Assembly (NCBI RefSeq): GCF_003431825.1
Contig: NZ_CP020083.1
Location: 1,650,501 to 1,714,500, forward strand
Length of the DNA: 64,000 bases
Direction of reading: 5' to 3'
DNA from: Blastomonas fulva
GTDB lineage: Bacteria > Pseudomonadota > Alphaproteobacteria > Sphingomonadales > Sphingomonadaceae
How positions within the stretch are numbered: position 1 is the stretch's first letter; each line of letters begins with the position of its first letter. Below are positions 39,848 to 61,656 of the stretch, one piece after another. The notes beneath the pieces are model-generated. The model was not told the DNA's origin and did no database searches. It saw only the letters and a program-made list of their open reading frames with translations. The position numbers were made by a program, and so were the translations under genes.

Positions 39848-40170
39848 CGAGACACTGATACGACGAGCCCGCGTGTTCCGTAAAGGTCTGTGCCGGATGA
39901 AGTACGTCCGCCAGGGAGCAACCGATGGAACATCCATCGGCCGGTTTCGGGCGGCCAACCGATGCTGCATGCCAGACGCGCAGTTCGAGGCCAGCAGGGA
40001 CTGTGACGGACCAGGCCAGCCAGAGAATTCCTGCGGCTCTGAAACAAGATTTTTGGTTTGCGGACAGCAAGCGGCCCGCGTCTAAAACAGGCTGAGCTTT
40101 ATCATTACCCGAAGCGCCCCCGGGCGGGGCGGCTTGCTCAGGCATCGACTTCAAGCGTTGGGGCAACTGG
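39848..40170. other. 323-bp gap upstream of the PQQ dehydrogenase
   Basis: No gene with coding character is seen. The right half contains one copy of the 45-bp element (40019-40063), 107 bp before the dehydrogenase start. The left half should hold the promoter of the DUF4269 gene. Confidence 0.5.
40019..40063 (+). promoter_or_regulatory. 45-bp regulon element, copy 1 (before PQQ dehydrogenase)
   Basis: It begins GCCAGAGAATTCCTG and ends TTTTTGGTTTGCGG. It aligns without gaps with the copy at 51877, with 35 of 45 bases identical by my count. The first core is AGAATTCCT, the second ACAAGATTTTTGG. The orientation is the same as that of the gene, whose start lies 107 bp downstream. Confidence 0.75.
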
Positions 40171-42312
40171 ATGCATTCTCTGTCGGAAATCCGGAAATAC
40201 ACGCAGGCGGCATTCATTTGTGCCGCGTTCTTGCTGTTGAGCTTGCAGGCGTGTTCATCGCCCAAATCCGCAGCCCCAGGTGCCGTTGATCAGGCGAGAC
40301 TTCTCAATGCTTCATCCGAGCCGGACAACTGGCTCGCAGGTGGCGGCGGGTTCGATGAGCAGCATTACAGTGCGCTCGACCAGATCAACGCACAGAATGT
40401 TGCACGATTGGGTCTCGCATGGTCGTTTGAAGTCGATACCAATCGAGGACAGGAAGCGACCCCTTTGGTCATTGACGGCGTCATGTACACGTCAACGGCT
40501 TGGTCGAAGGTCTATGCTATCGATGCACGTACGGGCAAGCAGCTGTGGCAGTTCGATCCACAGGTTCCCGGTGATGCAGCCTACAGCACCTGCTGCGATG
40601 TGGTGAATCGCGGCGTGGCTGTCTGGAGGGGGAAGGTTTTTGTCGGTACGATCGATGGGCGGCTGATCGCGATCGATGCGAGGACCGGCGATCAGCTTTG
40701 GTCCGTACAGACCTTCGACCGCTCCCATCCCTACGCGATTACCGGCGCCCCCCGGGTCTTCAAGGACAAGGTCATCATTGGCAATGGCGGTGCCGAATTC
40801 GGCGTCCGCGGGTATGTCACTGCTTATGATACCCAAACCGGTGCGCAGTTATGGCGTTTCTACACTGTGCCAGGCGATCCGTCGAAAGGGCCCGACGGTG
40901 CCGCATCAGATTCGGTGATGCCAATGGCGACCAGAACCTGGGCGGGCAAGTGGTACACGATGGGGGGCGGCGGCACCGCCTGGGACTCGATCGTTTATGA
41001 TCCCGAATTCGACCAGGTCTATATCGGCGTGGGCAACGGTGCACCGTGGAACCGGCAGGTCCGCTCGGACGGCAAGGGTGATAACCTGTTCCTGTCCTCG
41101 ATCGTCGCGGTCGATGCGGACACCGGCAAGTACAAATGGCATTATCAGCAGATACCTGGTGAAAGCTGGGACTTCACCGCGACCCAGCCGATGATGCTGG
41201 CCACGCTTTCGATCGGCGGAAAACCGCGCAGGGTGCTGATGCAGGCGCCGAAAAACGGCTTCTTCTATGTTCTCGATCGAAAGACCGGCAAGCTGCTCTC
41301 TGCCAAGGCATTCGTCCCGCAGACCTGGGCCGACCATATCGATTTGGCAACTGGGCGTCCGGTCATGAGCGAGAATGCCTATTACCAGAATGGCGCGAAA
41401 GTCATGTCCCCGGCTTCGGTCGGCGGCCACAACTGGCAGCCCATGTCCTACAGCCCCCGCACCGGGCTGGTGTACATTCCCACCGTCCGCTGGAGCATGC
41501 GATATGACCAGGACCCTGCGTTCAAGTTCCGTCCCGGCGCTGAACTGAACCAAGGGGCAGCGATCAGCCTCGATCCTGCTGCACCTTGGGGCACCGGCGC
41601 ATTGATTGCCTGGGATCCGCTCAGACAGCGCGAAGTCTGGCGGGTCCCACAACCCGAGATGATCAACGGCGGCACGATCGCGACGGCAGGCGATCTGGTG
41701 TTTGCCGGCGATGCGCATGGCACGTTCAGCGCATTTGGAGCAAGGGACGGCAAGAGGCTGTGGTCGTTCAAGCAGCCATCGGGCATCCTCGCAGCGCCAG
41801 CCAGCTACAGCATCGATGGCGTTCAATATATTGCGGTGTTGGTCGGAAAGGGCGGTGGTGCCATGGGCCTGCCGGATGTCAATCGTCCCCGGATTCCGAG
41901 GCTTAACGGCCGGATGCTGGTGTTCAAGCTGGGCGGAAAGGCCGTGCTGCCCCGGGTCGATCTCGATCTTCCGCCAGCCAATCCGCCCGGGCAGACATTC
42001 TCCCCGGCCACTGTCGCCTTGGGCGGGCGGCTGTATGGCGATAAGTGCGCGCGGTGCCATGAGGGGGTCGCGGCGCCTGATCTGCGTCGCTCCAACGCGC
42101 TGTCCGATGCGGAAACGTGGAAGGCCGTCGTTTACGATGGCGTGCTGACCGACACCGGTATGATCGGCTTTTCAAAGCTGATGTCGCAGGCGCAGGTCGA
42201 AGCAATCCGGGCTTATGTCGGCGATCTGGCGCTCGAACTTCAGAAGGAAGCGAAGACAGCACCCGGCAAGGGGGCAACTGCCAAGGATATGGCACGCGCA
42301 AAACCGCAATAG
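40171..42312 (+). CDS. PQQ-dependent alcohol dehydrogenase with cytochrome c domain, probable lipoprotein
   Basis: A 713-residue quinohemoprotein. A signal sequence ends in LLLSLQAC, a likely lipobox with Cys28, so the enzyme is probably anchored on the periplasmic face. The PQQ beta-propeller shows LGLAWSFEVDTNRGQEATPL, the vicinal cysteine pair in YSTCCDVVNRG that contacts PQQ, and the catalytic Asp in ESWDFTATQ. DFT instead of DYD at that site argues for calcium rather than lanthanide. A C-terminal heme c site CARCH is at residues 626-630. No PQQ synthesis genes are in the window. It is probably co-transcribed with the racemase-like gene, 98 bp downstream. Confidence 0.92.
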   Translation: MHSLSEIRKYTQAAFICAAFLLLSLQACSSPKSAAPGAVDQARLLNASSEPDNWLAGGGGFDEQHYSALDQINAQNVARLGLAWSFEVDTNRGQEATPLVIDGVMYTSTAWSKVYAIDARTGKQLWQFDPQVPGDAAYSTCCDVVNRGVAVWRGKVFVGTIDGRLIAIDARTGDQLWSVQTFDRSHPYAITGAPRVFKDKVIIGNGGAEFGVRGYVTAYDTQTGAQLWRFYTVPGDPSKGPDGAASDSVMPMATRTWAGKWYTMGGGGTAWDSIVYDPEFDQVYIGVGNGAPWNRQVRSDGKGDNLFLSSIVAVDADTGKYKWHYQQIPGESWDFTATQPMMLATLSIGGKPRRVLMQAPKNGFFYVLDRKTGKLLSAKAFVPQTWADHIDLATGRPVMSENAYYQNGAKVMSPASVGGHNWQPMSYSPRTGLVYIPTVRWSMRYDQDPAFKFRPGAELNQGAAISLDPAAPWGTGALIAWDPLRQREVWRVPQPEMINGGTIATAGDLVFAGDAHGTFSAFGARDGKRLWSFKQPSGILAAPASYSIDGVQYIAVLVGKGGGAMGLPDVNRPRIPRLNGRMLVFKLGGKAVLPRVDLDLPPANPPGQTFSPATVALGGRLYGDKCARCHEGVAAPDLRRSNALSDAETWKAVVYDGVLTDTGMIGFSKLMSQAQVEAIRAYVGDLALELQKEAKTAPGKGATAKDMARAKPQ

Positions 42313-42410
42313 GGCACTGCGGACCGCGCGGCGTCGATGAGCAGCTTGGTTTTCGCCTGAAGCCGGTCACCCCGCCTGATTTGAACATCGAGCCAACAGG
42401 ACACATTGCC

Positions 42411-43526
42411 ATGCCCTTGCCTTTGTCGAAGCGGCCAGCCTGGGCCGAAATTGATCTCGATGCACTTGCAAGCAATGTGCGCAAGATCAGAAGCCTGATC
42501 GGGCCCGATGTCAGGTTCTATGCGGTCTGCAAGAACAACGCTTATGGATGCGGCGCTGGCGAATGCGCAGCCACGATGCGTAACGCGGGTGTTGACGCTT
42601 TCGCGGTCTCTGACCCTGAGGATGCAGAGCGTATCCGCGATGCCGGCATAAATGCTCCGATCCTGCTGTACGGCGCGACGACACCCGATCAGGCCGAGGC
42701 GATTGCTGACCTCGGCTTGATCGTCACTATCCACGACCGACACGGGCTTGAGGCATTCGAGCAGCTGCAGCGTTCGGTTCAAGTCCATGTGGAAGTGGAT
42801 TGTGGCTATGGCCGCCTTGGATTTGTCCCGGAAGAATGGCCCGCCGTGTTTGAACGGTTGAAGCAAGCACGTCACCTTGAGGTCATTGGCCTGTACACGC
42901 ATCTGGTCAGGGCCGAAGACAGGCTGGCGATCGATAGGCAGGTCCGACGATTGAAGCAGGCCATCTCAGCTGCGCATGCGGCCGGCTTTCAGGACCTCGA
43001 GACAATGGCCGCAAGCAGCCGCGTTCTGCTGGGCTATCCCGAGCTCACCTGGACAGCGGTCAATCCCGGGCGTGCGCTCTACGGGATGATGGAGCAGCCC
43101 TGGCTTGACGGTCTGACGTTCGACCCCGTGATCCGGTCCATCAAGTCGCGGGTCTTGCAGGTCAAGACACTGCCTGCGGACTTCGAGGTCGATGATGCCC
43201 GGCACACGGCTGATCCGGGCAGGCTTAAAACAGCGGTGATTGCCTTCGGTTTCAAGGATGGCCTGCCTGCGCAGCCGGACGGGGGCACCGTGCTGGTGCG
43301 CGGGCAGCGCGCCCGCATCATTGCAGGGCGCGCGACAGAGCACACCATTCTCGACGTGACGGACATTCCCGATGTCGTCCCGGGTGATGAGGTCGTGCTG
43401 GTCGGCGTCCAGGGCGGCGACCGGATCACCGCAGCACAGGCGGTTCAATTCTATGGCATGCCGATGATCGAGCTGATGGCGCGCATGTCGCTCAGCGTCC
43501 CCCGGATATACTCCGGTGGTGCATGA
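42411..43526 (+). CDS. alanine racemase-like PLP protein with altered catalytic residues
   Basis: A 371-residue fold-III PLP protein. Lys41 in CKNNAYGCG is the expected PLP lysine; the normal motif is KANAYGHG, so the His is Cys here. DCGYGRLGF and NPGRALYG follow. In alanine racemases the latter reads RPGIALYG, whose Arg contacts the PLP pyridine nitrogen; here that position is Asn218. The catalytic Tyr of GYADG is replaced by Phe281 (GFKDG). The C-terminal barrel (TVLVRGQRARIIAGRATEHTIL, in part) is intact. A normal alanine racemase reaction therefore looks unlikely; it could be another racemase, a lyase or a binding protein. The start ATG is at 42411. Confidence 0.85.
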   Translation: MPLPLSKRPAWAEIDLDALASNVRKIRSLIGPDVRFYAVCKNNAYGCGAGECAATMRNAGVDAFAVSDPEDAERIRDAGINAPILLYGATTPDQAEAIADLGLIVTIHDRHGLEAFEQLQRSVQVHVEVDCGYGRLGFVPEEWPAVFERLKQARHLEVIGLYTHLVRAEDRLAIDRQVRRLKQAISAAHAAGFQDLETMAASSRVLLGYPELTWTAVNPGRALYGMMEQPWLDGLTFDPVIRSIKSRVLQVKTLPADFEVDDARHTADPGRLKTAVIAFGFKDGLPAQPDGGTVLVRGQRARIIAGRATEHTILDVTDIPDVVPGDEVVLVGVQGGDRITAAQAVQFYGMPMIELMARMSLSVPRIYSGGA

Positions 43527-43644: not shown

Positions 43645-44400
43645 ATGGCGAGAACAGCATTCATTACAGGCGCGACATCCGGCATCGGTGAAGCAGCGCT
43701 TAGGACGTTCGCGCGGGCCGGCTGGAACGTTATCGGCACAGGCCGCCGATCCGATCGGTTGCACGCTTTGCGTCAGGAGATCGGTGCGCAGATGCATGGC
43801 TGCGTATTCGATGTGCGAGATGAAGCCGGGCGCGATGCGGCACTGGCGGCATTGCCACCCGCGTTCGGCGAAATCGATCTGCTGATCAACAACGCCGGTC
43901 TGGCGCTCGGCACCAATAGCGCCGATCAATCGGATGTCGACCAGTGGAAGACGATGATCGATACCAATGTTACGGCTCTCGTATCGCTGACGCACAGACT
44001 GCTGCCCGGCCTGATCGGGCGGCGCGGCGCTATCATCAACCTGTCCTCGGTTGCCGGAAGCTACCCCTATGGCGGCGGCAATGTTTATTGTGGCACCAAG
44101 GCCTTTGTCACGCAGTTCTCGCTGGCGCTTCGCTCCGACCTGCATGGCAAGGGCGTTCGGGTCACGTCGATCGAACCGGGTATGGTGGAGACGGAATTCA
44201 CGCTCGTCCGCACCGGGGGGAATGATGCCTCGTCCAGCGCCTTGTACCAGGGTGCAAACCCCATGACGGGCCAGGATATAGCTAACACCCTGTTGTGGGT
44301 CGCACAGTTGCCGCCGCATCTGAACATCAATCGCCTTGAGCTTATGCCCGTGAGCCAGTCGTTCGCCGGGTTTCAGGTTGCGCGGACCGAAGCGGGCTGA
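43645..44400 (+). CDS. SDR oxidoreductase, YdfG-like
   Basis: A 251-residue short-chain dehydrogenase with TGATSGIGEAALRTFARAGW at residues 8-27, NNAG near 88, the active Ser in NLSSVAGSYPYGGG and Tyr/Lys in YCGTKAFV. The C-terminal region (PGMVETEFTLVR and LELMPVSQSFAGF) resembles YdfG, the NADP-dependent 3-hydroxy-acid/serine dehydrogenase. This would fit an amino-acid pathway, since YdfG oxidises L-serine and related beta-hydroxy acids. The substrate here is inferred. It is followed by the GlcG-like gene 78 bp on. Confidence 0.9.
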   Translation: MARTAFITGATSGIGEAALRTFARAGWNVIGTGRRSDRLHALRQEIGAQMHGCVFDVRDEAGRDAALAALPPAFGEIDLLINNAGLALGTNSADQSDVDQWKTMIDTNVTALVSLTHRLLPGLIGRRGAIINLSSVAGSYPYGGGNVYCGTKAFVTQFSLALRSDLHGKGVRVTSIEPGMVETEFTLVRTGGNDASSSALYQGANPMTGQDIANTLLWVAQLPPHLNINRLELMPVSQSFAGFQVARTEAG

Positions 44401-44478: not shown

Positions 44479-44955
44479 ATGATGCGAATATTGCTGGTCG
44501 CCGGAGCAGCAGCTGGACTGGGTATTGTGCCAGCAGCCGCTGCGCCTGCCGAGCCGTCCGACCAGGCCATGTTGCGCCTTGCCGATGCACAATCCATCGC
44601 AACCCGCGCGCTGCAGGCTGCAACCGAAAAGCAGATGAATGTGGCGATTGTGATCGTGAACCGCGAGGGCCGGGTCATTTTGGCTCAACGCATGGACGAT
44701 GCCTCGTTCATGAACATGGCGCTGGCCGAAGCCAAAGCAGCGACTGCTGCCGCTGCCGGCGTGCAGACGTCGTTGCTGGAGGATGCCGTGAACCAGGGCA
44801 AGCCCTCTTTGCTGTCCGTGCCCGGATCTGCGATGATCGGTGGCGGTGTGCCCATCGTGCGGGCCGACAGGATTGTGGGCGGAATCGGGGTCAGCGGCGG
44901 ATCGCCGAAGGATGATGAAAGCATCGCAACGGAAAGCCTCGGCCCACAAGGATAA
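44479..44955 (+). CDS. exported GlcG/HbpS-like heme-binding family protein
   Basis: A 158-residue protein with a signal peptide (MMRILLVAGAAAGLGIVPAA, cut after AAA) and one GlcG/HbpS domain: LADAQSIATRALQAATEKQM, VAIVIVNREGRVILAQRMDD and GGVPIVRADRIVGGIGVSGG. The family binds heme or small acids and often sits beside oxidases and dehydrogenases. Its periplasmic location agrees with the PQQ dehydrogenase of the same region. It probably shares a transcript with the SDR. Confidence 0.85.
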   Translation: MMRILLVAGAAAGLGIVPAAAAPAEPSDQAMLRLADAQSIATRALQAATEKQMNVAIVIVNREGRVILAQRMDDASFMNMALAEAKAATAAAAGVQTSLLEDAVNQGKPSLLSVPGSAMIGGGVPIVRADRIVGGIGVSGGSPKDDESIATESLGPQG

Positions 44956-45127: not shown

Positions 45128-45172
45128 GCGTTAGATTATCTGGCGTCGAGCCCCAAAATTAGTGGTTTGCGC
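45128..45172 (+). promoter_or_regulatory. 45-bp regulon element, copy 2 (before dipeptidase 1)
   Basis: It starts GCGTTAGATTATCTGGCG and ends AAATTAGTGGTTTGCGC. Bases 6-18 (AGATTATCTGGCG) are identical to the copy at 55806. The second core is CCAAAATTAGTGG. It aligns without gaps to the copy at 51877 at 30 of 45 positions. It has the same orientation as the dipeptidase gene. Confidence 0.75.
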
Positions 45173-45385: not shown

Positions 45386-45495
45386 TCGCCGATCGCAACA
45401 GGAACGCCACCATCCTGCCGGTGACCGCAAGCGAACACCGACGCGCTATCTGCGGTGCGCTGGGCTTGGTTTTCTGTAAGGAGAAGGACGAGGTT

Positions 45496-46626
45496 ATGCT
45501 CAACAGAAGAGAGATCATTCAGGGGACCAGCGCAACCGCAGTCTTGGCCTGGGCGCTTCCCGCGTTGGGAAAAGCGGGTGACGTCCCGGCGCTCCTCAAG
45601 GATGCGGAAGCGCTTTACAGGGAATCGGTCGTCATCGACATGCTGTGCGACGAGTATCGGGACGCCAGCGGGCTCGAGCAGATCAAGCAGGCGGGCCTGA
45701 CAGTCATGAGCACTACCCTGGGTGTACGCCGACCCGAAAAGCCTCGCGGTAGCTATATGAGCAATGGCTTCGAGCTCGACAGCGCAGTCGAGGATTGCGT
45801 CGAGTGCAACAAGTTCATCAAGGATAACAGCACCCTGCTAGCACCGGCGAGATCTGCGGCAGACATTTTGCGCGCAAAGCAGGAAGGGAAGACAGCAGTC
45901 ATGCTCAATTTCCAGAACTGCCCGATCGAAGGCGAGCTGGACAATATCGACATGTTCCACAGCCTCGGCATCCGCGCGATGCAGGTCACATACAACGAGC
46001 GCAACCTTCTCGGCGACGGCGCGACCGAACGAACAAATGCCGGACTTAGCGATTTCGGTATCGCCGCCGTGCAACGGATGAACGAAGTCGGCATCCTCGT
46101 GGATTCATCGCACTCTGGACCTCAGACCACGATGGATACGATCACCTTTTCCAAGCGCACGCCAATCATCTCGCACGCAAACTGCGCCGCACTGAATGAG
46201 CATCCGCGCAACAAGTCCGATGAGATTATCAAGGCGCTTGCCAAGAAGGGCGGGGTCATGGGCCTGACAACGGTCAACACCATGGTGAAGCGCGATTTCC
46301 CAGTGACGATGGAGGACTGGCTGAATCATGTCGACCACGTCGTAAGGCTTGTCGGCGTGGATCATGTCGGCTTTGGCACCGACACGCTGGTGCGCGGCTG
46401 GCCGACCGACCCCAAGCTCAAGGACGAGTTCCTTAAGGCGTATGGCGAACCACATTTCAAGGCGAGCTATCGTTTCCGCTATCCCTTCGGGACCGAGGGA
46501 ATGAACGATGCCCACAAATGGAAATATGCAACTGCGGGGCTGATGAAGCGGGGATATAAGGACACAGATATCGTCAAGATTCTCGGCGGCAACTGGATGC
46601 GGGTGATTGGAGACGTCATCGGCTGA
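45496..46626 (+). CDS. Tat-exported M19 (renal dipeptidase) family protein, metal site altered
   Basis: A 376-residue protein with a twin-arginine signal (NRREIIQGTSATAVLAWALP), so it is exported folded. The M19 barrel is recognisable: LGIRAMQVTYNERNLLGDG, the two metal His in VDSSHSG and ISHANCAAL, and Asp in VGFGTDTLV. The first metal motif, normally HxD after an Asp, reads D48-M-L-C-D52, so the His is lost, and the bridging Glu is Gln140 (LNFQN). M19 enzymes cleave dipeptides, including ones with a C-terminal D-residue; this one may use one metal, bind without cleaving, or act on another bond. A GGAG-containing ribosome site precedes the ATG at 45496. Confidence 0.88.
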   Translation: MLNRREIIQGTSATAVLAWALPALGKAGDVPALLKDAEALYRESVVIDMLCDEYRDASGLEQIKQAGLTVMSTTLGVRRPEKPRGSYMSNGFELDSAVEDCVECNKFIKDNSTLLAPARSAADILRAKQEGKTAVMLNFQNCPIEGELDNIDMFHSLGIRAMQVTYNERNLLGDGATERTNAGLSDFGIAAVQRMNEVGILVDSSHSGPQTTMDTITFSKRTPIISHANCAALNEHPRNKSDEIIKALAKKGGVMGLTTVNTMVKRDFPVTMEDWLNHVDHVVRLVGVDHVGFGTDTLVRGWPTDPKLKDEFLKAYGEPHFKASYRFRYPFGTEGMNDAHKWKYATAGLMKRGYKDTDIVKILGGNWMRVIGDVIG

Positions 46627-47002: not shown

Positions 47003-47962
47003 ATGCTCAGGGAAACACCCAATCTGGACTGGCTGCGCGTGTTCGCCGAAACGGCGGCAACCGAGAGCTTCGTCCTGGCAGCGGCGAGGCTGAGCGTAAC
47101 GCCTGGCGCGGTCAGCCAGCGGATCAAGGCGCTCGAGGCCTTTCTGCGGGTCGAGCTGTTTCAGCGTTATCCGCAAGGAGTAAAGCTGACAGAGGCGGGA
47201 AGGCGTTATGCCCAGCGTATCTCTCCGGCGCTCGACCTTCTGGTGTCCGCCACCCGAGAAATCGCTTCGACCGGAGGCCCCAAGACGATCCGCATGTCGA
47301 TCCTGCCAGCGCTGGCCCAGCTCTGGCTCGGCCCCAGGATGGATAACTTTTATTCGCTCCATGCGAACATGAATGTCGAGATTTGGGCCGATGCGACTGT
47401 GATCGATATGCGCACATCCAATTTCGACATCGCAATTCGCTATGGCCAGCCGCCCTTTCCCGGTTGCGAGTATCGCGCGTTGCTGTTCGACGAGCTTGTT
47501 CCCGTAGCCAGCCCGAAGCTGATGATGGCAACCGATGCCGACCATCTGGGCCTCCCGATTGGAGCGCCCCTGATGCTGGATATTTATTGGGAGCATGATT
47601 TTACCGATTGGCTCAATCGGACCAGCCAGATCCGACCCGAAAAGCTGAGCACGCAGACCTTTTCTTTGTATTCCATGACGGTCGATGCGGCCGTCCAGGG
47701 AAGCGGTTTCATGATCGGCCACACCGCACTGATTGGCGGGCTGCTGGAAGAGGGCAAGCTGCAACAGCTTTCCCAACTGCGTGTTCCTTCCAACAATCAG
47801 TTCTATCTGCTGACGAAATCAGGCGCGCCGTTGTCCGAGGCGGCCGAAACCTTCGTCACCTGGGTAGTGGAGCAGGCCAGAGCTGGGGAGGCCCAGCCAT
47901 CGCCGGGCGTTGCAGGTCTGGAGAGTGATGGGGCTGCTGATGTCGCCGAAGCCGGGAACTGA
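47003..47962 (+). CDS. LysR family regulator, GcvA-like
   Basis: A 319-residue LysR-type regulator. Residues 5-64 form the winged HTH (NLDWLRVFAETAATESFVLA, then LSVTPGAVSQRIKALEAFL, and TEAGRRYAQRI), and the rest is the periplasmic-binding-like effector domain (RMSILPALAQLWLGPRM, then FDIAIRYGQPPFPG). The IAIRYG segment is typical of the GcvA branch. It is the only regulator in the accessory region, in its centre, and thus the best candidate to bind the six 45-bp elements, whose two cores are spaced like a LysR recognition/activation pair. The start is placed at 47003; an in-frame ATG at 46964 would extend it across the palindrome. Confidence 0.9.
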   Translation: MLRETPNLDWLRVFAETAATESFVLAAARLSVTPGAVSQRIKALEAFLRVELFQRYPQGVKLTEAGRRYAQRISPALDLLVSATREIASTGGPKTIRMSILPALAQLWLGPRMDNFYSLHANMNVEIWADATVIDMRTSNFDIAIRYGQPPFPGCEYRALLFDELVPVASPKLMMATDADHLGLPIGAPLMLDIYWEHDFTDWLNRTSQIRPEKLSTQTFSLYSMTVDAAVQGSGFMIGHTALIGGLLEEGKLQQLSQLRVPSNNQFYLLTKSGAPLSEAAETFVTWVVEQARAGEAQPSPGVAGLESDGAADVAEAGN

Positions 47963-48044: not shown

Positions 48045-49169
48045 TCAGACCGCGATCTGGCCGAGCGATTGCAGCGCTGGCACATAAGGCCGGTTCAGCG
48101 CCCGTGCTACGGCAAGGTTGGTGACCTGCCCTGCGTGAATGTTCAGGCCCTCGAGCAAATGAGGATCGTGGCTGAGCGCTTCGAGACCCCTGGCGGCCAG
48201 TGCGAGTCCGAAAGGCAGTGTCGCATTGTTCAGCGCTTCGCTCGAGGTCATCGGGACGGCACCGGGCATGTTGGCAACGCAGTAATGAATGATGCCATCG
48301 ACTTCGTAGGTTGGATTTTCATACGTCGTCGGCCTTGAGGTTTCAAAGCACCCGCCCTGATCTATGGCGACGTCTATCAGCACGGCCCCTGGCTTCATTT
48401 TGCTGAGACTTGCGCGGCTGACCAGTCTGGGCGCACTGGCCCCCGGCACCAGCACAGCACCGACCGTGGCATCTGCCTCGGCAAGTTCTTCCTCTATGTT
48501 GCCAATCGTCGACATCCGTGTCCGGACCCGCCCGCTGAAGAGTTCGTCCAGCTGGCGCAGCCGTGCAACCGAGCGATCGATGATCGTAACCTCTGCGCCC
48601 AGCCCGACTGCCATGCGCGCTGCATGGGTTCCCACGACGCCACCGCCAATGATCATCACGCGGGCCGCCTTTACGCCTGGCACGCCGCCGAGCAGCAGGC
48701 CGCGGCCGCCGGAATGCCGCCGAAGCGCTGAGCCTGCAGCCTCGATCGAGAGGCGGCCAGCGACCTCACTCATGGGTGCCAGCAAGGGCAGGGCACCGGA
48801 GCGATCCGTGACTGTCTCATAGGCGATTGCCGTGCAGCCCGAATCGAGCAAACCCTTGGCCTGTGCGGGATCGGGAGCAAGATGCAGATAGGTGAAGAGA
48901 ATCTGGCCTGCGCGCAGCTGAACCCACTCAGACGGCTGCGGCTCCTTGACCTTGACGATCATCTGAGCCCTCTGGAACACTTCGCCTGCGCTGGCGACGA
49001 TCGTCGCGCCCACTGCCGCGTAGGCATCGTCCCCAGCCCCGATGCCGGCACCGGCACCGGTCTCCACCACCAGCTGATGACCGTTGGCGACATACTCGCG
49101 AGCGGACCCGGGCGTCAGTCCTACGCGATACTCATTCGCCTTGATCTCACGGGGTACGCCAACCAGCAT
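48045..49169 (-). CDS. ald: alanine dehydrogenase
   Basis: A 374-residue NAD enzyme starting MLVGVPREIKANEYRVGLTP, the usual N-terminus with the substrate Arg. The substrate Lys is in VKVKEPQPSEW, the catalytic His in TYLHLAPDP, NAD is bound by IIGGGVVGTHAARMA, and the catalytic Asp is in IDVAIDQGGC. All known active-site residues are present. It deaminates L-alanine to pyruvate and ammonia, or the reverse. It is third in line after the PhyH dioxygenase and the SHMT-like enzyme on the same strand, which suggests that alanine is the product of the preceding step. Confidence 0.96.
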   Translation of the reverse strand: MLVGVPREIKANEYRVGLTPGSAREYVANGHQLVVETGAGAGIGAGDDAYAAVGATIVASAGEVFQRAQMIVKVKEPQPSEWVQLRAGQILFTYLHLAPDPAQAKGLLDSGCTAIAYETVTDRSGALPLLAPMSEVAGRLSIEAAGSALRRHSGGRGLLLGGVPGVKAARVMIIGGGVVGTHAARMAVGLGAEVTIIDRSVARLRQLDELFSGRVRTRMSTIGNIEEELAEADATVGAVLVPGASAPRLVSRASLSKMKPGAVLIDVAIDQGGCFETSRPTTYENPTYEVDGIIHYCVANMPGAVPMTSSEALNNATLPFGLALAARGLEALSHDPHLLEGLNIHAGQVTNLAVARALNRPYVPALQSLGQIAV

Positions 49170-54019: not shown

Positions 54020-54120
54020 TCCAGAAGCGCTACGTCAGGCCAGAGGCCCTGCAAGCCTTGATGGCGGCAACCCGCGGCCCTGACCATTTGCGACAGATAT
54101 TCCTGAAGAAAGGGGCCAAG

Positions 54121-55557
54121 ATGATGATCGCATGGGTTTCTCGATTGGCGCTCGTCGCTCTGATGGCGACTGCGCCTGCCGTGGCGCAACACAATGCTCC
54201 CGAAGCCAGACCCATCTACAAACGCGACCAGTGGCTTCCGAAATCGGTGCCCACCTCGGACGATGGCCTGCGCATCCCAGTTCCGGCTGATTTCAACGCG
54301 CCCAAGGGGTCGTTCGTGCTCGTTGGCGGGCGGTTGTTTGACGGCACCGGGGCACCAGCGCGGCCGGCGACCATCGTGGTGGAGGGCAAGACGATCACTG
54401 CGGTCCTCAACCCCGGTGATCGTAACTGGCCCGAAGGCGCCGTTGTCTTCGATGTTGCCGGCAAGACAGTGATGCCGGGCCTGATCGACTTGCATACCCA
54501 TCTCACCTTTCTCGATACTGCGAGCGCCAGCAGCGTTTTTTCGGCGGCGAATCTCAGCAGCGCGGAATCCGCCATGCGGGCCGTGCAGCGCATGGCGATC
54601 TATCTCCAGGCCGGCATAACCAGCGTGCGCGACGTGGGCTCGCATGGCGATGTGCCGTTCGTGCTCAAGCGCCGCCAGGCGGAGGGTTCGATCGCCGGCC
54701 CCCGCATCTTTGCCGCCGGGCAACTGATCACCCAGACCGGTGGGCATGGTGCGATACATGCGTTTGCGCCGGGATCGCCCGAGGTGACCAACGGCAACCC
54801 GAACTCTATGGCGCGAATTGCAACCGGCCCTGACCAATGGCGCGAGGCGGTGCGCATCCAGTTCGCCAAGGGCGCCGACCTCATCAAGCTCGCAAGCGAG
54901 TATACCCAGGAAGAAGTTACGGCCGCAGTAGACGAGGCTCATTCGCTGGGCCTGCCCGTGACGGTCGATGCCGAGACCCAGTATATCGACATGGCGATCA
55001 AGGCTGGGGTTGATTCGATCGAGCATCCTTTGCCGCGCAGCGACGCTGCGGTCGCGCTGATGGCGAGGCGCGGGATCGCTTCGGTGCCGACGCTGATCCC
55101 CTATCGCCTGATTTCGCGCAGATCGGGCGGCTATTATGGCACGCCTTCGCGCCGGTTCGAGTTGAATGAGACCACCATCATGGAGATGGCCAAGAAAATG
55201 CACCGCGGCGGTGTCAAGATGGGGATCGGACTGGACCTGATCCTGGATGCTCCGGCTCATCTGCCCGGCGCCTATATCAACGAGCTGGAGAGCTTCGTCG
55301 ATCTAGGATTTACCAAGCCAGAGGCGCTGGTTGCGGCGACCAGGACAAGTGCCGAGATCATGCACATGGGAGACCGGATTGGGACGATCAGAGCTGGAAT
55401 GCTCGCGGATATCATCGTCATCGATGGCAATCCCGACGAGGATTTCGCAGCTTTGCGAAAGGTGACCACGGCCTTTGTCAACGGTCGCCTCATGTTGCAG
55501 GACGGCCGCATCTATGTTCCGGCCCATGAAGAGGTCCCTCTCCCTGGTGCCAGGTAA
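54121..55557 (+). CDS. exported amidohydrolase family protein
   Basis: A 478-residue protein with a signal peptide (MMIAWVSRLALVALMATAPA, cut after AVAQ). The barrel has H125-T-H127 in LIDLHTHLTF, the lysine likely to be carboxylated in DLIKLASEY, the later His in DSIEHPLPR, and Asp in GIGLDLIL. The His normally found in the strand before it (VHA) is Asp here (VDAET). The group includes prolidase-like imidazolonepropionase relatives that cleave dipeptides or amides. It starts at an ATG after AAAGGGG. It is probably co-expressed with the DUF885 gene. Confidence 0.88.
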   Translation: MMIAWVSRLALVALMATAPAVAQHNAPEARPIYKRDQWLPKSVPTSDDGLRIPVPADFNAPKGSFVLVGGRLFDGTGAPARPATIVVEGKTITAVLNPGDRNWPEGAVVFDVAGKTVMPGLIDLHTHLTFLDTASASSVFSAANLSSAESAMRAVQRMAIYLQAGITSVRDVGSHGDVPFVLKRRQAEGSIAGPRIFAAGQLITQTGGHGAIHAFAPGSPEVTNGNPNSMARIATGPDQWREAVRIQFAKGADLIKLASEYTQEEVTAAVDEAHSLGLPVTVDAETQYIDMAIKAGVDSIEHPLPRSDAAVALMARRGIASVPTLIPYRLISRRSGGYYGTPSRRFELNETTIMEMAKKMHRGGVKMGIGLDLILDAPAHLPGAYINELESFVDLGFTKPEALVAATRTSAEIMHMGDRIGTIRAGMLADIIVIDGNPDEDFAALRKVTTAFVNGRLMLQDGRIYVPAHEEVPLPGAR

Positions 55558-55805: not shown

Positions 55806-55850
55806 GGCGTAGATTATCTGGCGCAAAGAGCCAGAATTACTGACTTTATA
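55806..55850 (+). promoter_or_regulatory. 45-bp regulon element, copy 5 (before TonB receptor)
   Basis: It contains AGATTATCTGGCG, identical to copy 2 over 13 bases, then GAGCCAGAATTACTGACTTT. The second core is CCAGAATTACTGA. The receptor start is 174 bp downstream on the same strand. Confidence 0.75.
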
Positions 55851-56024: not shown

Positions 56025-58355
56025 ATGATAAAGACCAAAGCAAGTAACAGGCTTTTGGCTACCATATCGATGGGCGCATTTATGTGTTCGACTGCGGCAC
56101 TCGCCAATGACCAAGTGCCGGAGCAGGGCGACGCGAGAACGCGCAATCCAAGCGAGATCGTCGTGACGGCGACGCGCCGCGACACTACGATCTTGCGCAC
56201 GCCGGTCAGCGTCAGTGCCTACTCCCAGGAAGATCTCGATGTGAGGGGCGTGCGCAACATTGAGGACCTCGCGCGCATGACTCCGGGGCTTTCGCTCAAC
56301 CAGGGGGCATTCGGCGCCAGCTATCTTGTGATCCGCGGGCTCACCTCCGTGATCGGCGCGACGATGAACGGCGTCTATATCGACGACACGCCTGTCCAGG
56401 TTCGCTCATTGAGCACGACATCCAACTTCTACCCCGCCATGTTCGACCTTGAGCGCATCGAAGTGCTGCGTGGCCCCCAGGGCACCTTGTTCGGCGCTGG
56501 CGCCATGGGCGGTGCCATCCGCTTCATCACTGCAAAGCCGAGCGTCAGCGAATATTCCGGCTATGGGCGCGCCGAGCTGGCGACGACCGAAGGCGGCGCG
56601 CTGAGTTACGAGGCGGGGGCTGCCGTTGGCGGGCCCCTTGTCGAGAACAAGATCGGATTTCGGGCAAGTGGCTATTATCGCCGCGACGGCGGCTATATCG
56701 ATCGCGTCCCTTACATCCAGAATGGGGGCACACCCAAGCAAAACGCCAACTCGCGCGATACCTATGTCGGCAACTTCGCGTTGTTGCTCAAGCCGACCGA
56801 AGATCTGACGATCACGCCATCTGTCTTCTACCAGAAAGCCAACCGGAACGAGAGCGACCAATTCTGGGAATGGCGACCCAATGTCGATCTGCCACCATTT
56901 CCGGCATTCACCAGCGGCGAAAGCATTCCCTCCTTTGGCCGGGACCGCGCCGTCCTTTATGCGGTCAAGGCGGAAGCCGATCTTGGGCCGGCAAGGCTGA
57001 TCAGCAATACCTCATACCTCGATCGCAAGGTCGTGAACAGCGACGATGGCACCGGTCTTCTGCTCGATATACTCGGTCTACCCGCCGCGGGATTCGGCTT
57101 GCCGGGCATCATTGATGAACGTCTGTCGGTCGACGTCACCATAAGGCAGCGGACGTTGACCCAGGAGCTGCGCCTGGTGTCCAACCCCAGCGCGAGCCCG
57201 ATCAGCTATTCGTTCGGCCTGTTCTACCAGAACGCGCGTCAGAGCGCGGTCGAATTCAACAGGGCTGCCAGGCCCGATATTTTCTACATCCCCTCCATCA
57301 ACGGCAACGTCAATTTTGGCAATGACAGAGCGCTGGACCGCCAGTTTGCCGTTTTCGGGCAGGTCGACTACAAGCTGACCGACAAGCTCAGTGTCAGCGC
57401 CGGTGCGCGCTATTCGTACATCGAATTCGATTTTCGCGGTGTAACGGGCAACAATGTGCCCACCGATGTGGTCACCAGCGGAAGCACGGCAGAAAGCCCG
57501 ATTACGCCCAAGTTCGGGATCGAGTATCAGGCCACCGACGATCTGATGATCTATGCCAGCGCAGGCAAAGGGTTTCGTCCGGGCGGCTCCAACGTCGTTC
57601 CAACGCTTCCCGATCCCGCATGCACCGCCCAGCTCAGAAATCTGGGTTATGAAGATGTACCAAGGCAGTACCGTTCGGACAGCACGTGGAGCTATGAAGT
57701 CGGTGCGAAGGGGCGCGCTGGTCGCTGGCTGACCTTTGCGGCGAACGCGTTCCAGATCGACTGGACCGATGTTCAGCGAAGCCGGACCGTGGTCAATTGT
57801 GCTTCGCCGTTTATCGACAACCTCGGCAAATCGCGCGCCCGGGGCGTGGAGGCGCAGTTCACGATCACGCCTGTCACCGGTCTCTCGCTCGATGTGAACT
57901 TCAGCTACACCCGGGCGACCGTGCAGGAGACCCTCATCCGTCCCGCTATCCTCAATCCTGACGGGTCGGTGGCGAGCCCGGCGGCTAACATCGTCACCAA
58001 GGGGGATCGTTTCGCGCCACCCTGGATCGTTTCGCTCGCGGGCAATTACGAGACCAGCCTGGGGGCCAGCGGGTTGACGGGCTATGGCCGTGTGCAATGG
58101 GATTATCGCAGCGGCCTGGACAACCCATCGGGCAATCTCGGTTTCGATCCGCTGTATGCGCGCGTATTCACCCGAAACTTTGTGGCCGCAAGACTGGGAG
58201 GGCGTGCCGGCAATACGGATATCTCGCTGTTCATCAATAATGTCCTGAATTCACGCGACGAATTGTCGAGGCTGGGGATAGGTCCCGGCCAGCGGCTGCT
58301 GCGGCAGGTCTATCGGCCGCGGACATTCGGGGTCACCGCGAGCTACCGGTTTTGA
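56025..58355 (+). CDS. TonB-dependent receptor of the accessory region
   Basis: A 776-residue outer-membrane receptor. The signal peptide is MIKTKASNRLLATISMGAFM, with cleavage after ALA; then a TonB box-like EIVVTATRR, the plug (DLARMTPGLSLNQGAFGASY and LRGPQGTLFGAGAMGGAIR) and a barrel ending TASYRF with terminal Phe. The PGLS/LRGPQGTLFG motifs are typical of the sphingomonad receptor group for organic substrates. It probably imports the compound broken down by the surrounding peptidase-like enzymes. It is unlike the sucrose receptor in sequence. A 45-bp element lies upstream. Confidence 0.93.
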   Translation: MIKTKASNRLLATISMGAFMCSTAALANDQVPEQGDARTRNPSEIVVTATRRDTTILRTPVSVSAYSQEDLDVRGVRNIEDLARMTPGLSLNQGAFGASYLVIRGLTSVIGATMNGVYIDDTPVQVRSLSTTSNFYPAMFDLERIEVLRGPQGTLFGAGAMGGAIRFITAKPSVSEYSGYGRAELATTEGGALSYEAGAAVGGPLVENKIGFRASGYYRRDGGYIDRVPYIQNGGTPKQNANSRDTYVGNFALLLKPTEDLTITPSVFYQKANRNESDQFWEWRPNVDLPPFPAFTSGESIPSFGRDRAVLYAVKAEADLGPARLISNTSYLDRKVVNSDDGTGLLLDILGLPAAGFGLPGIIDERLSVDVTIRQRTLTQELRLVSNPSASPISYSFGLFYQNARQSAVEFNRAARPDIFYIPSINGNVNFGNDRALDRQFAVFGQVDYKLTDKLSVSAGARYSYIEFDFRGVTGNNVPTDVVTSGSTAESPITPKFGIEYQATDDLMIYASAGKGFRPGGSNVVPTLPDPACTAQLRNLGYEDVPRQYRSDSTWSYEVGAKGRAGRWLTFAANAFQIDWTDVQRSRTVVNCASPFIDNLGKSRARGVEAQFTITPVTGLSLDVNFSYTRATVQETLIRPAILNPDGSVASPAANIVTKGDRFAPPWIVSLAGNYETSLGASGLTGYGRVQWDYRSGLDNPSGNLGFDPLYARVFTRNFVAARLGGRAGNTDISLFINNVLNSRDELSRLGIGPGQRLLRQVYRPRTFGVTASYRF

Positions 58356-58533: not shown

Positions 58534-59532
58534 ATGATGGTCACGCAGCCCCCGGTCAATCTGAAGGACTGGCTGGTCTGGGACAATCACGGTTGCTTGC
58601 CTTTGCGGCCGTTCGATACCGTTTTCCTTCCGCAACTTGCCCGCTATCGGCAGGCGGGGGTCGATGTCGCCATCGTCAATATCGGCTTTGGCGACCATGG
58701 TATCGAAGACCACATCCGGATGATCGCCAATTTTCGTCACTGGCTCAAGCAACATCCCGAAAGCTATGTGCTGATCGCGACGGTGGACGATATCGAACGG
58801 GCCCGGCGCGAGGGTAAGCTGGCGATCGCGTTCAACATGGAAGGCGCCAACGGTGTGGCCGATCAGCCCAGCCTGATCAGCCTGTATTATGATCTTGGCG
58901 TCCGATGGATGCTTATGGCCTACAACCGCGCCAACCGGGTCGGCAGCGGTTGCCATGAGGACGAGGACCGCGGGTTGACCGCGTTCGGGCGTATCGTGTT
59001 GGACGAGATGGCCCGTGTCGGCATGGTGGCCTGCTGTTCGCACACTGGCCATCGTACGACGATGGACGTGATGCATTACGCGTCGCGACCGGTCATCTTC
59101 TCGCACTCCAACCCGCGCGCGCTGCACGACCACCCCCGCAACATCCGTGATGAAGCCATGCGGGCCTGCGCTGCGACCGGAGGCGTGGTCGGGATCAACG
59201 GCATCGGCATCTTCCTCGGCCAGAACGACAATTCGACCGAAACCTTCGTGCGCCACGTCGATTATGCGGTTCAGTTGATCGGTGCCGAGCATGTTGGGCT
59301 GGGGCTGGACTATGTCTTCGATGCCGCTGAACTGGATGATTATCTCGTCAGCATGGCCTCCACTTTTCCCGAAGGCTTCAGCTATCAGGCCGGTATGAAG
59401 ATGATCGAGCCCGAGCGGCTGTCGGACATCGTCGAAGCTCTCGTGAAACGGGGATACCCCGAAGCCGCCATTGGCGGGATTCTGGGCGGCAACTTCATGC
59501 GCGTGGCCCGCGACGTCTGGCGACCTGCCTAG
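58534..59532 (+). CDS. M19 dipeptidase family protein (second copy, cytosolic)
   Basis: A 332-residue M19 protein without a signal peptide. The first metal motif is D17-N-H19-G-C21: His is kept but the Asp of HxD is Cys. The bridging Glu is in FNMEGANG, the two His are in CCSHTGHR and FSHSNPRAL, and Asp is in GLGLDYVF. It therefore keeps more of the site than the copy at 45496 and may be an active dipeptidase of the HxC subfamily. It follows the TonB receptor by 178 bp on the same strand. The two M19 copies differ widely, so they are not a recent duplication. Confidence 0.9.
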   Translation: MMVTQPPVNLKDWLVWDNHGCLPLRPFDTVFLPQLARYRQAGVDVAIVNIGFGDHGIEDHIRMIANFRHWLKQHPESYVLIATVDDIERARREGKLAIAFNMEGANGVADQPSLISLYYDLGVRWMLMAYNRANRVGSGCHEDEDRGLTAFGRIVLDEMARVGMVACCSHTGHRTTMDVMHYASRPVIFSHSNPRALHDHPRNIRDEAMRACAATGGVVGINGIGIFLGQNDNSTETFVRHVDYAVQLIGAEHVGLGLDYVFDAAELDDYLVSMASTFPEGFSYQAGMKMIEPERLSDIVEALVKRGYPEAAIGGILGGNFMRVARDVWRPA

Positions 59533-59625: not shown

Positions 59626-61161
59626 CTAGTCGATCGCTGCCAGAGTGTAGAGGAACTCGGCATAGGCCATGACCGAGTCGACGAGGCCTGCCACCTTGGG
59701 GTTGGTGGACTCGATCAAGAGATATTCATCGGGCGCATGGGCATAGCCGCCAGTACCCAGCCCGAACCGCCCCACCGGAACGGATACGGGTGGCTGGGTG
59801 AATGTCCCGCCAGGCCAGCTCCCCGCAAGCCTCACGGTGAGATCCGGTCTGATGCCCAGCTTCCTGTACGTTGCCATCGCAGTGCGGATGAGGCGGCTGT
59901 TCTCGTCGGTTTCGGTGGGATCGTAACCGCCACTCACCTTCATCTCGACATCGGCAAAGCCTTGCTTGTCGAGATGCGCGCGCAGCTTCTGAACGGCCTC
60001 GGCGCGCGTCTGATTGGGCACCAGCCGGAAATCGAGCTTGGCAACCGCACGGTTGGGCAGGATGGTCATGCCGCCGGGACCGGTGTGGCCCGCGACCAGC
60101 CCTTCGATATTGACGGTCGGCGCCTGGGCCAGCCGGATAAGCGCATCCGGGAAGGGGAGGTCGTCGATCCAATGGGTGATACCAAAGGCATCTTTCATCT
60201 GCCCTTCGGTCACGGGCGATATCGCTTGTGTGATCAGGGATTTCTCGCGCTCGGTTAGCGGGCGGACATTCTCGAACCAGCCTTCGATCGCAGGGGTATT
60301 GCCGTCAGGCGTAACCAGTGTCTGCAGGGCCTGCACCAGTCGCCATACCGGAGAATCGACTATGGCCTTCAGGCTGGAGTGAATGTCGTTCTTCGGTCCT
60401 CGGCCCCATTTGTTGCCACTGGCGATCAACTCCAGCTCGATGATACCCTTCGCGCCCAGTTCGACTGCGGCATTTCCCTCCAGCCCCTGCATGGTGGTGG
60501 GCATGAAGACGCCGTCGCACGACCGCAGCGCGGCGAGCACACGGGGCGTTGTGACGAGCTGGCGGAAATTGGGAGAGCCGATCTCCTCCTCGCCTTCGCA
60601 AATGAGGACGAGATTGACCGGCAAGGTGCGCCCAGCCGCCCGGATGGCATGCAGAGCGGAGAGAAACGTCGCCTCGGGGCCCTTGTGATTGGCCGACCCC
60701 CTGCCGACCATCGTGGTGCCAAGCCCCTTTCGCTCGACAAGCCTGCCCTCAAGCGGGGGAGAGGACCATTCGGCGGGAGTGAATTGCTTGACGTCATACA
60801 TGAAATAGAGACCCAAGGTGCGTGGCGCCCCCACGTCGATCTTGCCAAACACGCCCGGATGCCCGTCTGTCGGGATGATCTCGACATCGGTGAATCCTGC
60901 ATCCCTCGCCAGTCCGGCGAAATAGGCCGCGCCCTCGGGCATGTTCAGGTTTTCGGCAGCGATCGATGGCAGTGCTATCCAGTCGCGGATGCGCTTGATG
61001 GCCGTATCCTTGCCTGCCAGCGCCGCAGCGCGCACATCCGATAATGCGCCCGATTGCGCCAGAAGGGGTAGCGGTTGAGCCAGGGCAATGCCGGCGCCCA
61101 GCAGTGCGCCGGTTTGGATCAGGTCGCGACGGTTGAGGCAGTTGAAGTCATCGAAGGTCAT
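59626..61161 (-). CDS. Tat-exported M20 peptidase-like protein, metal site altered
   Basis: A 511-residue protein with a twin-arginine signal (LNRRDLIQTGALLGAGIALA). The M20 fold is clear, and the base is E192-E193 in EGEEEIG. The first metal motif, normally GHxD, reads F-M121-Y-D123, so the His is Met; the bridging Asp in GRGxxD is Asn158 (GRGSANHKG). The lid-domain part is present (PNRAVAKLDFRLVPNQT). M20 enzymes cut amides of short peptides or N-acyl amino acids; loss of two ligands makes classical two-zinc chemistry doubtful. The start ATG is at 61161. It is transcribed away from the ABC genes. Confidence 0.88.
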   Translation of the reverse strand: MTFDDFNCLNRRDLIQTGALLGAGIALAQPLPLLAQSGALSDVRAAALAGKDTAIKRIRDWIALPSIAAENLNMPEGAAYFAGLARDAGFTDVEIIPTDGHPGVFGKIDVGAPRTLGLYFMYDVKQFTPAEWSSPPLEGRLVERKGLGTTMVGRGSANHKGPEATFLSALHAIRAAGRTLPVNLVLICEGEEEIGSPNFRQLVTTPRVLAALRSCDGVFMPTTMQGLEGNAAVELGAKGIIELELIASGNKWGRGPKNDIHSSLKAIVDSPVWRLVQALQTLVTPDGNTPAIEGWFENVRPLTEREKSLITQAISPVTEGQMKDAFGITHWIDDLPFPDALIRLAQAPTVNIEGLVAGHTGPGGMTILPNRAVAKLDFRLVPNQTRAEAVQKLRAHLDKQGFADVEMKVSGGYDPTETDENSRLIRTAMATYRKLGIRPDLTVRLAGSWPGGTFTQPPVSVPVGRFGLGTGGYAHAPDEYLLIESTNPKVAGLVDSVMAYAEFLYTLAAID

Positions 61162-61656
61162 AGGAAGCCCCTTGGAAACACAGCAATGGGCACCTGGTTT
61201 CGGATGATCGGGCGGCCAATACAAACCTGAATGTCTCAGGCTAAGCCTGAGCTTTTCTATAGGCCTGGCCGCGCGATGACATCGACAGCAGAGATTTCGA
61301 CGGCTCAGGTCGATCATGCCGCTGACCGATTTCAGCCAGCCCGCCGTTCCAGCATGAGAATAACTACCCTTGAGCGATAAGATTAGTGATTTGCGTCGTT
61401 GCTGGCTTTCTCCGAAACTCTGTCGCGATGGCAAAACAGAAACGCTGGTTAGACGCGCTCAGCCCAACCTAGCCCGGGGCCGTGGTTGACCGGCGGAGCG
61501 ACCTCTCTGGCGCTGAGGAAGGCGCCAGGTCCGCTGGCAAAGGCTGGTCCTGTGAATTGTGTGCGGGCGAAACGCAGCTTCTTCGCGATGTGCTGCGGGC
61601 ATATTGCGGCGTCATCCATGACGATGGGCAGCAAAGAGAATTTCCAGGAGGCAATA
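61162..61656. other. 495-bp divergent gap between the M20 and ABC genes
   Basis: No gene was found. It contains one 45-bp element (61352-61396) in the direction of the ABC genes. The M20 promoter must lie in the left part. An ATG at 61618 is in frame with the ABC gene but lacks a ribosome site. Confidence 0.5.
61352..61396 (+). promoter_or_regulatory. 45-bp regulon element, copy 6 (before ABC exporter)
   Basis: It starts GCATGAGAATAACT and ends GATTAGTGATTTGCGT, sharing the right half AGATTAGTG/GATTTGCG with copies 2 and 4 (26 of 45 identical to copy 4 without gaps). The left core is weaker. It is 260 bp before the ABC ATPase start. Confidence 0.6.

Follow-up and report, generated by a model that had tools for sequence, protein, structure and literature searches.

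A 45-bp element with the layout of a LysR operator in an accessory region of Blastomonas fulva, and its possible link to 2-aminoisobutyrate catabolism

The window analysed here is a stretch of 64,000 nucleotides of the Blastomonas fulva genome (NCBI RefSeq assembly GCF_003431825.1, contig NZ_CP020083.1, positions 1,650,501 to 1,714,500), in which an earlier reading of the sequence, referred to below as the original prediction, had described six copies of a 45-bp two-core element and had assigned them to a single LysR regulon. We consider it probable that each copy is a predicted operator-promoter module of the GcvA-like LysR-type regulator encoded at 47003-47962, and that this regulator would switch on the uptake of peptides containing 2-aminoisobutyrate (Aib) and the catabolism of Aib. 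This reading is built on features that were computed here, namely the element and its confinement within the genome, the link of the element with the LysR family, an anatomy resembling that of a promoter, and the replacement of one predicted Aib enzyme by a decarboxylase in some genomes.

Direct alignment of the six 45-mers showed that they lie where they had been placed and align without gaps, with pairwise identities of 22-35 of 45 bases; the earlier hand counts of 35 for copies 1 and 4, 30 for copies 2 and 4, and 29 for copies 2 and 5 are exact. The 13-mer AGATTATCTGGCG, which had been pointed out as shared, has two occurrences in the genome, in copies 2 and 5. When a matrix was built with one copy left out, the held-out copy ranked sixth among all window positions on both strands (the top five being taken as the training copies), and the six-copy matrix found no further window position above 10 bits. 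A sequence-only covariance model built from the six window copies (R1) gave six matches at E ≤ 10 in the 4.12-Mb genome, all of them the window copies, and a later 29-site model (R2) gave six matches at E ≤ 1. With stricter filters, R1 gave only chance-level matches against 147 other genomes (8 genomes, E 0.006-0.057 per genome) and none in eight congeners; the eight weak matches were set aside as the chance yield over that many genomes. A matrix scan of this kind had been proposed as a check, and its outcome was as hoped for, the element being found in this region alone in its own genome, at chance level in the 147 others, and in the loci of LysR homologues described below. The PhyH gene of the accessory region is present in none of the eight other genomes of the genus.

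As originally claimed, every copy is located upstream of a gene and in the same orientation as that gene. Copy 6 falls within the longest frame of the opposite-strand M20 peptidase gene, yet upstream of the likely start of that gene. The apparent gap of 26 bp between copy 3 and its gene arose because the PhyH frame was read too long, as orthologues begin at the second Met; with the start placed there (approximately 51518), the distance is approximately 103 bp. Conservation drops at the element edges. The 80-residue stretch preceding copy 5 gave no Pfam match.

The tie to the regulator was analyzed using 16 loci of public genomes, for which homology to the window LysR was the sole selection criterion; the nearest solved relative of this LysR is 8y6u, an entry named glycine cleavage system transcriptional activator. 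Fifteen of the loci are close (53-75%, 12 genomes), and the remaining one, from Mesorhizobium (L035, 27%), carries a distant paralogue. The independent tests are those made with the window-only models, R1 and the six-copy matrix. R1 gave 20 matches at E < 0.05, compared with 0.05 expected, in 270 kb (the 16 loci and two duplicates); these matches are spread over 11 of the 15 close loci and are lacking in L025, L026, L029, L032 and L035, with no R1 match even at E ≤ 5 in L025, L026, L029 and L032. Over the 241 kb of the 15 close loci, the ungapped window matrix gave 27 matches that reached 22 bits, compared with a mean of 0.005, and at most 1, for 200 column-permuted matrices, and L026 and L029 score highly with this matrix despite their negative outcome with R1. 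That the window-only models find the element so far above chance in loci selected by the regulator alone strongly supports the original assignment of the LysR as the probable controller of the regulon.

The best site near the LysR start lies at offset -41, with a score of at least 27 bits, in 11 of the 15 close loci. These sites point away from the LysR gene and their 5' end overlaps its start codon, a position that suggests autorepression of LysR in the homologue loci. A weaker match in L025 is located at offset -44, a shift of 3 bp. The L020 locus also contains a second LysR paralogue of the family (2656-3595) with a weak element at its start, and some genomes carry two such paralogues. For the LysR gene of the window, an eye alignment with indels had proposed an element remnant at approximately 46960-47005; a full-model scan gave only one 2.9-bit match, at 46995-47011 on the other strand, and the remnant is not claimed.

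R2 was trained on an alignment of 29 sites, of which five, lying at the LysR start with the common offset, were chosen by eye and one scored below the selection cut-off, with the match at L031 20180-20217 left out; because this training drew on the LysR loci, the numbers derived from R2 hold partly by construction. In the genome-wide searches with R2, most strong matches were found on the contigs that carry LysR, and four matches at E ≤ 0.04 lay off these contigs, three in Sphingopyxis panaciterrae and one in Sphingomonas colocasiae. Elements on contigs other than that of the LysR locus (L073 4839-4880, L070 4610-4651 and L072 4862-4901) hint at a wider regulon in some species. Searches for LysR and for the element each covered 396 genomes of the order, the own genome included, with the same handles listed. 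LysR was found in three of them (the own genome, G231 and G335), elements at E ≤ 1e-3 in two, both LysR-positive, and elements at E ≤ 0.01 in three (the own genome, G335 and a weak partial one in G346). No element was found in G231, in which the region upstream of LysR is identical to that of the Qipengyuania locus L025.

In order to describe the element, statistics were taken over the 38 sites that R2 matched with at least 21.9 bits, the 16 weaker of 54 rows being excluded. A6, T14, A28, T36, T40 and T41 are invariant in these sites. Of the two cores originally proposed, AGA-N3-TCT at positions 6-14 stands, whereas CCA-N7-TGG at 26-38 holds only in part and is better written as A-N7-T (28-36). 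The core centres had been placed 22 bp apart, and the dyad axes at 10 and 32 are indeed separated by this distance; a further axis was found at 21, so that the three axes, which rank first at half-lengths 7 and 9 in a scan of the 29 sites, follow each other at one helix turn. A(-4) and T(+4) are invariant at axes 10 and 32, and G(-3) and C(+3) are common at axis 10 only (32 of 38 each). Of the 38 sites, 26 carry the inner AG-N5-CT at the first axis, and all 38 carry A-N7-T at the second.

Downstream of the second axis, the fraction of A+T is 0.53-0.79 at positions 64-69, compared with 0.21-0.53 at most other positions, and TATAAT-like matches are best near positions 61-71 (mean 3.13 of 6, compared with 2.05-2.68 in control windows). 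From this composition we infer that TTTGC (39-43) is the -35 element and the AT-rich hexamer at 64-69 the -10 element of the predicted target promoter, which would place the axes near -65 and -43, positions from which LysR proteins activate. With a spacing of two helix turns, the half-site pairs (A6-N7-T14 and A28-N7-T36) are arranged as two dimers of a LysR tetramer would read them. A sigma-54 promoter was also considered, an rpoN gene being located at 35485-37029. In such promoters GG and GC are spaced by 10 bp; the element has only 3 bp between its GG (37-38) and its GC (42-43), and this possibility was therefore rejected.

All six window targets have a homologue preceded by the element in at least one other genome. 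The element was found before PhyH genes in L020, L031, L076, L078, L083 and L084 (73-81%), before M19 dipeptidase genes in L084 (93%) and L079 (81%), before a DUF885 gene in L020 (66%), before TonB-dependent receptor genes in L027, L081 and L083 (49-61%) and also in L076, L070 and L030, before homologues of the pyrroloquinoline quinone (PQQ)-dependent alcohol dehydrogenase in L078 (71%) and L028 (44%), and before a homologue of the ABC transporter ATPase in L077 (64%). Further genes preceded by it encode an alanine dehydrogenase (L074), an amidohydrolase (L072, 4862-4901, and L075), an M20 peptidase (L073, 4839-4880), an amino-acid permease and alanine racemase pair (L078) and a glutathione-dependent formaldehyde dehydrogenase (L020). 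The gene maps of the loci consist of the longest frames called by a simple rule, and such frames overlap the element in L079 (the M19 gene), L072, L031 and L084. Since the targets are mutually non-homologous, the motif is not accounted for by flanks of common descent.

The likely substrate of the regulon, judged from its predicted enzymes, is Aib. The closest solved relatives of the PhyH protein are entries named only phytanoyl-CoA dioxygenase, followed by leucine hydroxylase (5nch) and ectoine hydroxylase (EctD), and its alignment shows the H-x-D motif and the later H. The adjacent enzyme of the serine hydroxymethyltransferase (SHMT) fold is 32% identical to the sole other match in the genome, which was taken as GlyA. 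In the window and in seven relatives of the system, this SHMT-like enzyme has L, P, E and I in place of GlyA E57, Y55, Y65 and N347 and keeps K229, D200, H203, R363, H126 and S175, residues which we take to have their usual functional roles in GlyA; judged by these residues, the protein encoded at 49332-50654 would not be a serine hydroxymethyltransferase. The enzyme (72-100%) is present in 10 of 13 genomes with the regulator, and PhyH adjoins its gene in all 10. A close homologue of 2,2-dialkylglycine decarboxylase (82-100%) is present in exactly the other three, two Caulobacter and one Luteimonas, in which its gene adjoins the regulator and the element; the Mesorhizobium genome of the distant paralogue (59% decarboxylase) was left out of the count. 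The chance of a perfect 10:3 split is 1 in 286 if the genomes are taken as independent, which they are not. No close decarboxylase homologue is present in the window genome (0 matches at E ≤ 1e-80), and a second, 38% SHMT-like gene is present in G439.

The Caulobacter decarboxylase scores 573 bits to the solved enzyme 1d7r, compared with 224 for the next kind. The available text of PMC10169451 lists six active-site residues of the Burkholderia decarboxylase, and Q52, W138, M141, S215, K272 and R406, counted along the alignment, are all identical in the Caulobacter protein (L030 8548-9948). The frame called for it opens only 13 bp downstream of the element; as the solved enzyme aligns with it from residue 42 onwards, the true start probably lies further inside the frame. 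The Luteimonas decarboxylase is hidden in the longest-frame map and was recovered by homology search. In the parts available of PMC7782822 and PMC10169451, 2,2-dialkylglycine decarboxylase is described as acting on Aib.

In the proposed pathway, the inducer and each enzymatic step of which are predictions, the regulator probably senses Aib or an Aib product, PhyH would hydroxylate an Aib methyl group to give alpha-methylserine, the SHMT-fold enzyme would split alpha-methylserine into a one-carbon unit and alanine, and the alanine would be carried to pyruvate by alanine racemase and alanine dehydrogenase. The formaldehyde dehydrogenase, whose gene follows the element in L020 and adjoins LysR in L083, fits a folate-independent, formaldehyde-releasing aldolase. 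It is also found in L087, a Paraburkholderia plasmid without element matches, near a 55% SHMT-like gene that is followed by L-serine ammonia-lyase and branched-chain-type transporter genes. According to the available text of PMC7918591, alpha-methylserine aldolase is folate-independent in vitro. Alternatively, the SHMT-fold enzyme could be AibC-like and decarboxylate 2-amino-2-methylmalonate, in which case the YdfG-like dehydrogenase of the window could serve; no clear counterpart of this dehydrogenase was seen in the maps of the other loci. An Aib monooxygenase of the AibH1H2GF type consists of two neighbouring subunits of the amidohydrolase fold with a Rieske ferredoxin and a reductase; this layout was not seen among the scanned window genes, which include a single amidohydrolase and PhyH instead. 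On the Mesorhizobium plasmid pB2-1-8 (L088/L089), a 40% SHMT-like relative clusters with genes for a ferredoxin, a reductase and two amidohydrolases that lie side by side, a layout resembling that of the Rhodococcus Aib monooxygenase.

The targets and neighbours across the loci comprise M19, M20, M1, S9, S10, S15, S33-type and penicillin-amidase-type hydrolases, DUF885 proteins and TonB receptors, and the many peptidases and receptors suggest the scavenging of Aib peptides. The TonB receptors would take up Aib-containing peptides, which would be cut by the M19, M20, DUF885, amidohydrolase and M1 enzymes. The original prediction of a regulon of oxidation, import, hydrolysis and export genes is thus retained as regards one regulon, and the function looks more specific, as a catabolism of peptide-released Aib. 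Peptaibols, which are fungal antibiotics, end in a C-terminal amino alcohol, and the PQQ alcohol dehydrogenase might serve to oxidise it; this is the weakest step of the proposal. The available text of PMC10169451 names peptaibols as a great source of Aib. In its widest form, in which one LysR and its operator would control a complete bacterial programme for eating Aib-rich peptaibols (import, peptidases, oxidation of the C-terminal amino alcohol, and a 2-oxoglutarate dioxygenase with a folate-independent SHMT-fold lyase, evolutionarily interchangeable with dialkylglycine decarboxylase), the proposal is tentative, and we would give it slightly less than an even chance. Literature searches on peptaibol degradation, alamethicin, DgdR, alpha-methylserine aldolase, LysR regulons and Aib/PhyH returned no title describing this system among those listed, which is not proof of absence, and a search from the PDB codes of the PhyH relative returned nothing relevant among the best 8 of 27.

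It is important to mention that several observations weigh against this interpretation. No site is present near the LysR start in three of the 15 close loci, L028, L032 and L033; L028 has two matches 100-240 bp upstream of the LysR start, and L032 is a short contig without any match. The LysR of the window itself has no recognisable upstream element in a full-model scan of 46700-47200, so that autoregulation is not claimed in the window. The Qipengyuania genome (G440) has LysR, PhyH and the SHMT-like enzyme, and its best genome-wide match reaches only E 0.6; weak, shifted or gapped versions of the element are present there at the LysR and PhyH starts (L025 4198-4235 and 7608-7648), and are perhaps a diverged operator. 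The dyad pairs do not covary beyond column composition, the dyad scan ran without a shuffle control, and A+T is also raised at positions 56-57 (0.63-0.66). As regards the decarboxylase, the independent swap events are few, since the tree joins the two Caulobacter LysRs as sisters and gives poor support to the placement of the third, and two genomes with the SHMT-like enzyme (G436 and G438) also carry a 49-50% decarboxylase homologue elsewhere. For PhyH, the pattern covers the 10 genomes with the SHMT-like enzyme. Finally, as to the reaction of the SHMT-like enzyme, alpha-methylserine aldolase, alpha-methylserine hydroxymethyltransferase and AibC were compared with it by description only.

Other explanations were weighed against these data. 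A dispersed repeat of the REP or MITE type, spread by copying, would account for the agreement of copies 1 and 4 at 35 of 45 bases, and has next to no likelihood in our judgement: the hundreds of unrelated matches by which such a repeat was to be recognised did not occur, the genome having six copies only, all upstream of genes and in gene orientation, with conservation that falls at the edges and single columns that are conserved across genera with variable bases between them. We also regard it as quite improbable that another factor binds the element and was merely co-inherited with the LysR gene. Clusters can travel with several regulators, and the window LysR has no element adjoining it; against this, the element lies over the LysR start codon at a fixed offset in 11 of 15 loci with differing neighbours, as is typical of LysR genes that regulate themselves, and the published geometry of GcvA, by name the closest relative with a solved structure, is the same as that of the element.

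If the operator is accepted, the substrate may still differ. Peptides with D-amino acids or beta-hydroxy-amino acids, or peptides in general, might be the true object of the regulon and Aib a misreading, given that the SHMT-like, PhyH and alanine dehydrogenase families are broad and many neighbours are general peptidases. We hold this to be unlikely, yet far from negligible, since all three genomes without the SHMT-like enzyme have, under this regulator, a decarboxylase of a kind that acts on Aib, and since GlyA residues are missing from the SHMT-like enzyme at four positions. The regulon might instead serve free Aib or free 2-amino-2-methyl-1-propanol, the PQQ enzyme oxidising the alcohol to Aib. 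The alcohol dehydrogenase is indeed a target in the window, L078 and L028. Against this, many loci have TonB receptors and peptidases among their targets or neighbours, and the stretches mapped for the three decarboxylase loci showed no homologue of the alcohol dehydrogenase, so that we find this explanation rather improbable.

The coordinates of the element copies and of the genes around them are collected in Table 1. The full permease downstream of copy 6 (L080 3-3680) has 1225 residues and carries an M1 peptidase domain at its C-terminus. Its homologues in L075, L077, L082 and L083 are 1202-1247 residues long, the M1 domain being established for L080 alone.

Table 1. Copies of the element and predicted genes in the accessory region, with positions in the window.
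Feature	Position	Strand	Remarks
Element copy 1	40019..40063	+	before PQQ alcohol dehydrogenase gene
PQQ-dependent alcohol dehydrogenase with cytochrome c domain	40171..42312	+	
Alanine racemase, longest frame	42117..43526	+	family match covers residues 106-465
Short-chain dehydrogenase, YdfG-like	43645..44400	+	below YdfG model cutoff
HbpS-like protein	44479..44955	+	
Element copy 2	45128..45172	+	before M19 dipeptidase gene
M19 dipeptidase	45421..46626	+	likely start 45496
LysR-family regulator, GcvA/DsdC-like	47003..47962	+	proposed element binder; family matches below curated GcvA/DsdC cutoffs
Alanine dehydrogenase	48045..49169	-	TIGR00518 above cutoff
SHMT-fold pyridoxal phosphate enzyme	49332..50654	-	without GlyA residues at positions 55, 57, 65, 347
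PhyH-family Fe/2-oxoglutarate dioxygenase	50736..51596	-	candidate Aib methyl hydroxylase; true start probably 51518
Element copy 3	51622..51666	-	before PhyH, SHMT-like and alanine dehydrogenase genes
Element copy 4	51877..51921	+	before DUF885 gene; dyad centres 51886 and 51908; TTTGC 51915-51919 fits -35; predicted -10 at about 51940-51945
DUF885 protein	52055..54019	+	
Amidohydrolase, longest frame	53734..55557	+	best domain match from residue 245
Element copy 5	55806..55850	+	before TonB-dependent receptor gene
TonB-dependent receptor	56025..58355	+	
Second M19 dipeptidase	58534..59532	+	
M20 peptidase, longest frame	59626..61434	-	likely start 61161
Element copy 6	61352..61396	+	before ABC transporter genes
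ABC transporter ATPase, longest frame	61486..62550	+	likely start 61618
ABC permease start	62547..63998	+	full protein extends past window; C-terminal M1 peptidase domain (L080)

With these results, an uncharacterised regulator gains a defined predicted operator, a promoter geometry and a list of targets in sphingomonads, Caulobacter and Luteimonas. They predict a 2-oxoglutarate-dioxygenase route for Aib, where the hydroxylation route in the available text of PMC7782822 uses a diiron enzyme. They also draw attention to possible bacterial consumers of peptaibols, a trait that would matter for the warfare between Trichoderma and bacteria and for biocontrol, and the operator could be used for finding new peptidases that act on Aib peptides.

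Among the known systems, dgdA of Burkholderia cepacia, which is governed by the LysR-type DgdR, resembles the present one in that the regulator and element described here are joined with such a decarboxylase in Caulobacter and Luteimonas, and differs in that the window genome has no close homologue of it. The aib cluster of Rhodococcus wratislaviensis C31-06 was studied by proteomics and assays, and all its proteins except the undetected AibR were induced by Aib; as far as the available text of PMC7782822 goes, it shares with the window a LysR (AibR), an SHMT-annotated pyridoxal phosphate enzyme (AibC) and an alanine dehydrogenase (AibA). There, however, a three-component diiron monooxygenase of the amidohydrolase fold hydroxylates Aib, whereas the candidate here is a PhyH-family dioxygenase, and AibC decarboxylates 2-amino-2-methylmalonate after two oxidations; AibR and the window LysR are likened by family only. 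DGD1/DGD2 of the yeast Saccharomyces likewise combines an Aib-responsive regulator with dialkylglycine decarboxylase, and its authors draw a link to fungal peptaibols, whereas the regulator is of a eukaryotic type and no peptidase regulon appears in the available text (PMC10169451). The tris(hydroxymethyl)aminomethane (TRIS) degradation cluster of Pseudomonas has an SHMT-annotated enzyme acting on an alpha-substituted serine and a helix-turn-helix regulator; its substrate is different, no PhyH, peptidase or TonB gene appears in the available text (PMC10848231), and it is likened by description, not by sequence.

The element itself is best compared with the E. coli GcvA operator between gcvA and gcvB. 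According to the available text of PMC5002191, two GcvA inverted repeats are centred at -65 and -43 from the gcvB start, and GcvA is negatively autoregulated and activates the divergent gene. The axes of the element are predicted to fall near the same positions, and the element is therefore likened to this operator: both have two inverted repeats 22 bp apart, the A at -4 and the T at +4 of each axis are as in ATTAG-n5-CTAAT, and both involve a GcvA-type regulator with a divergent gene that is self-regulated, here by prediction, the site overlapping the LysR start in 11 of 15 loci. The differences are that the published repeat is not fully matched, its outer letters not being kept in the element, that the targets are gcvB and gcvTHP there and a catabolic peptide and Aib set here, and that the window regulator has no site of its own. 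By analogy, the element is taken to work like the GcvA operator, as a predicted new member of the LysR kind, and the catabolic programme, if right, would be a new variant of Aib catabolism.

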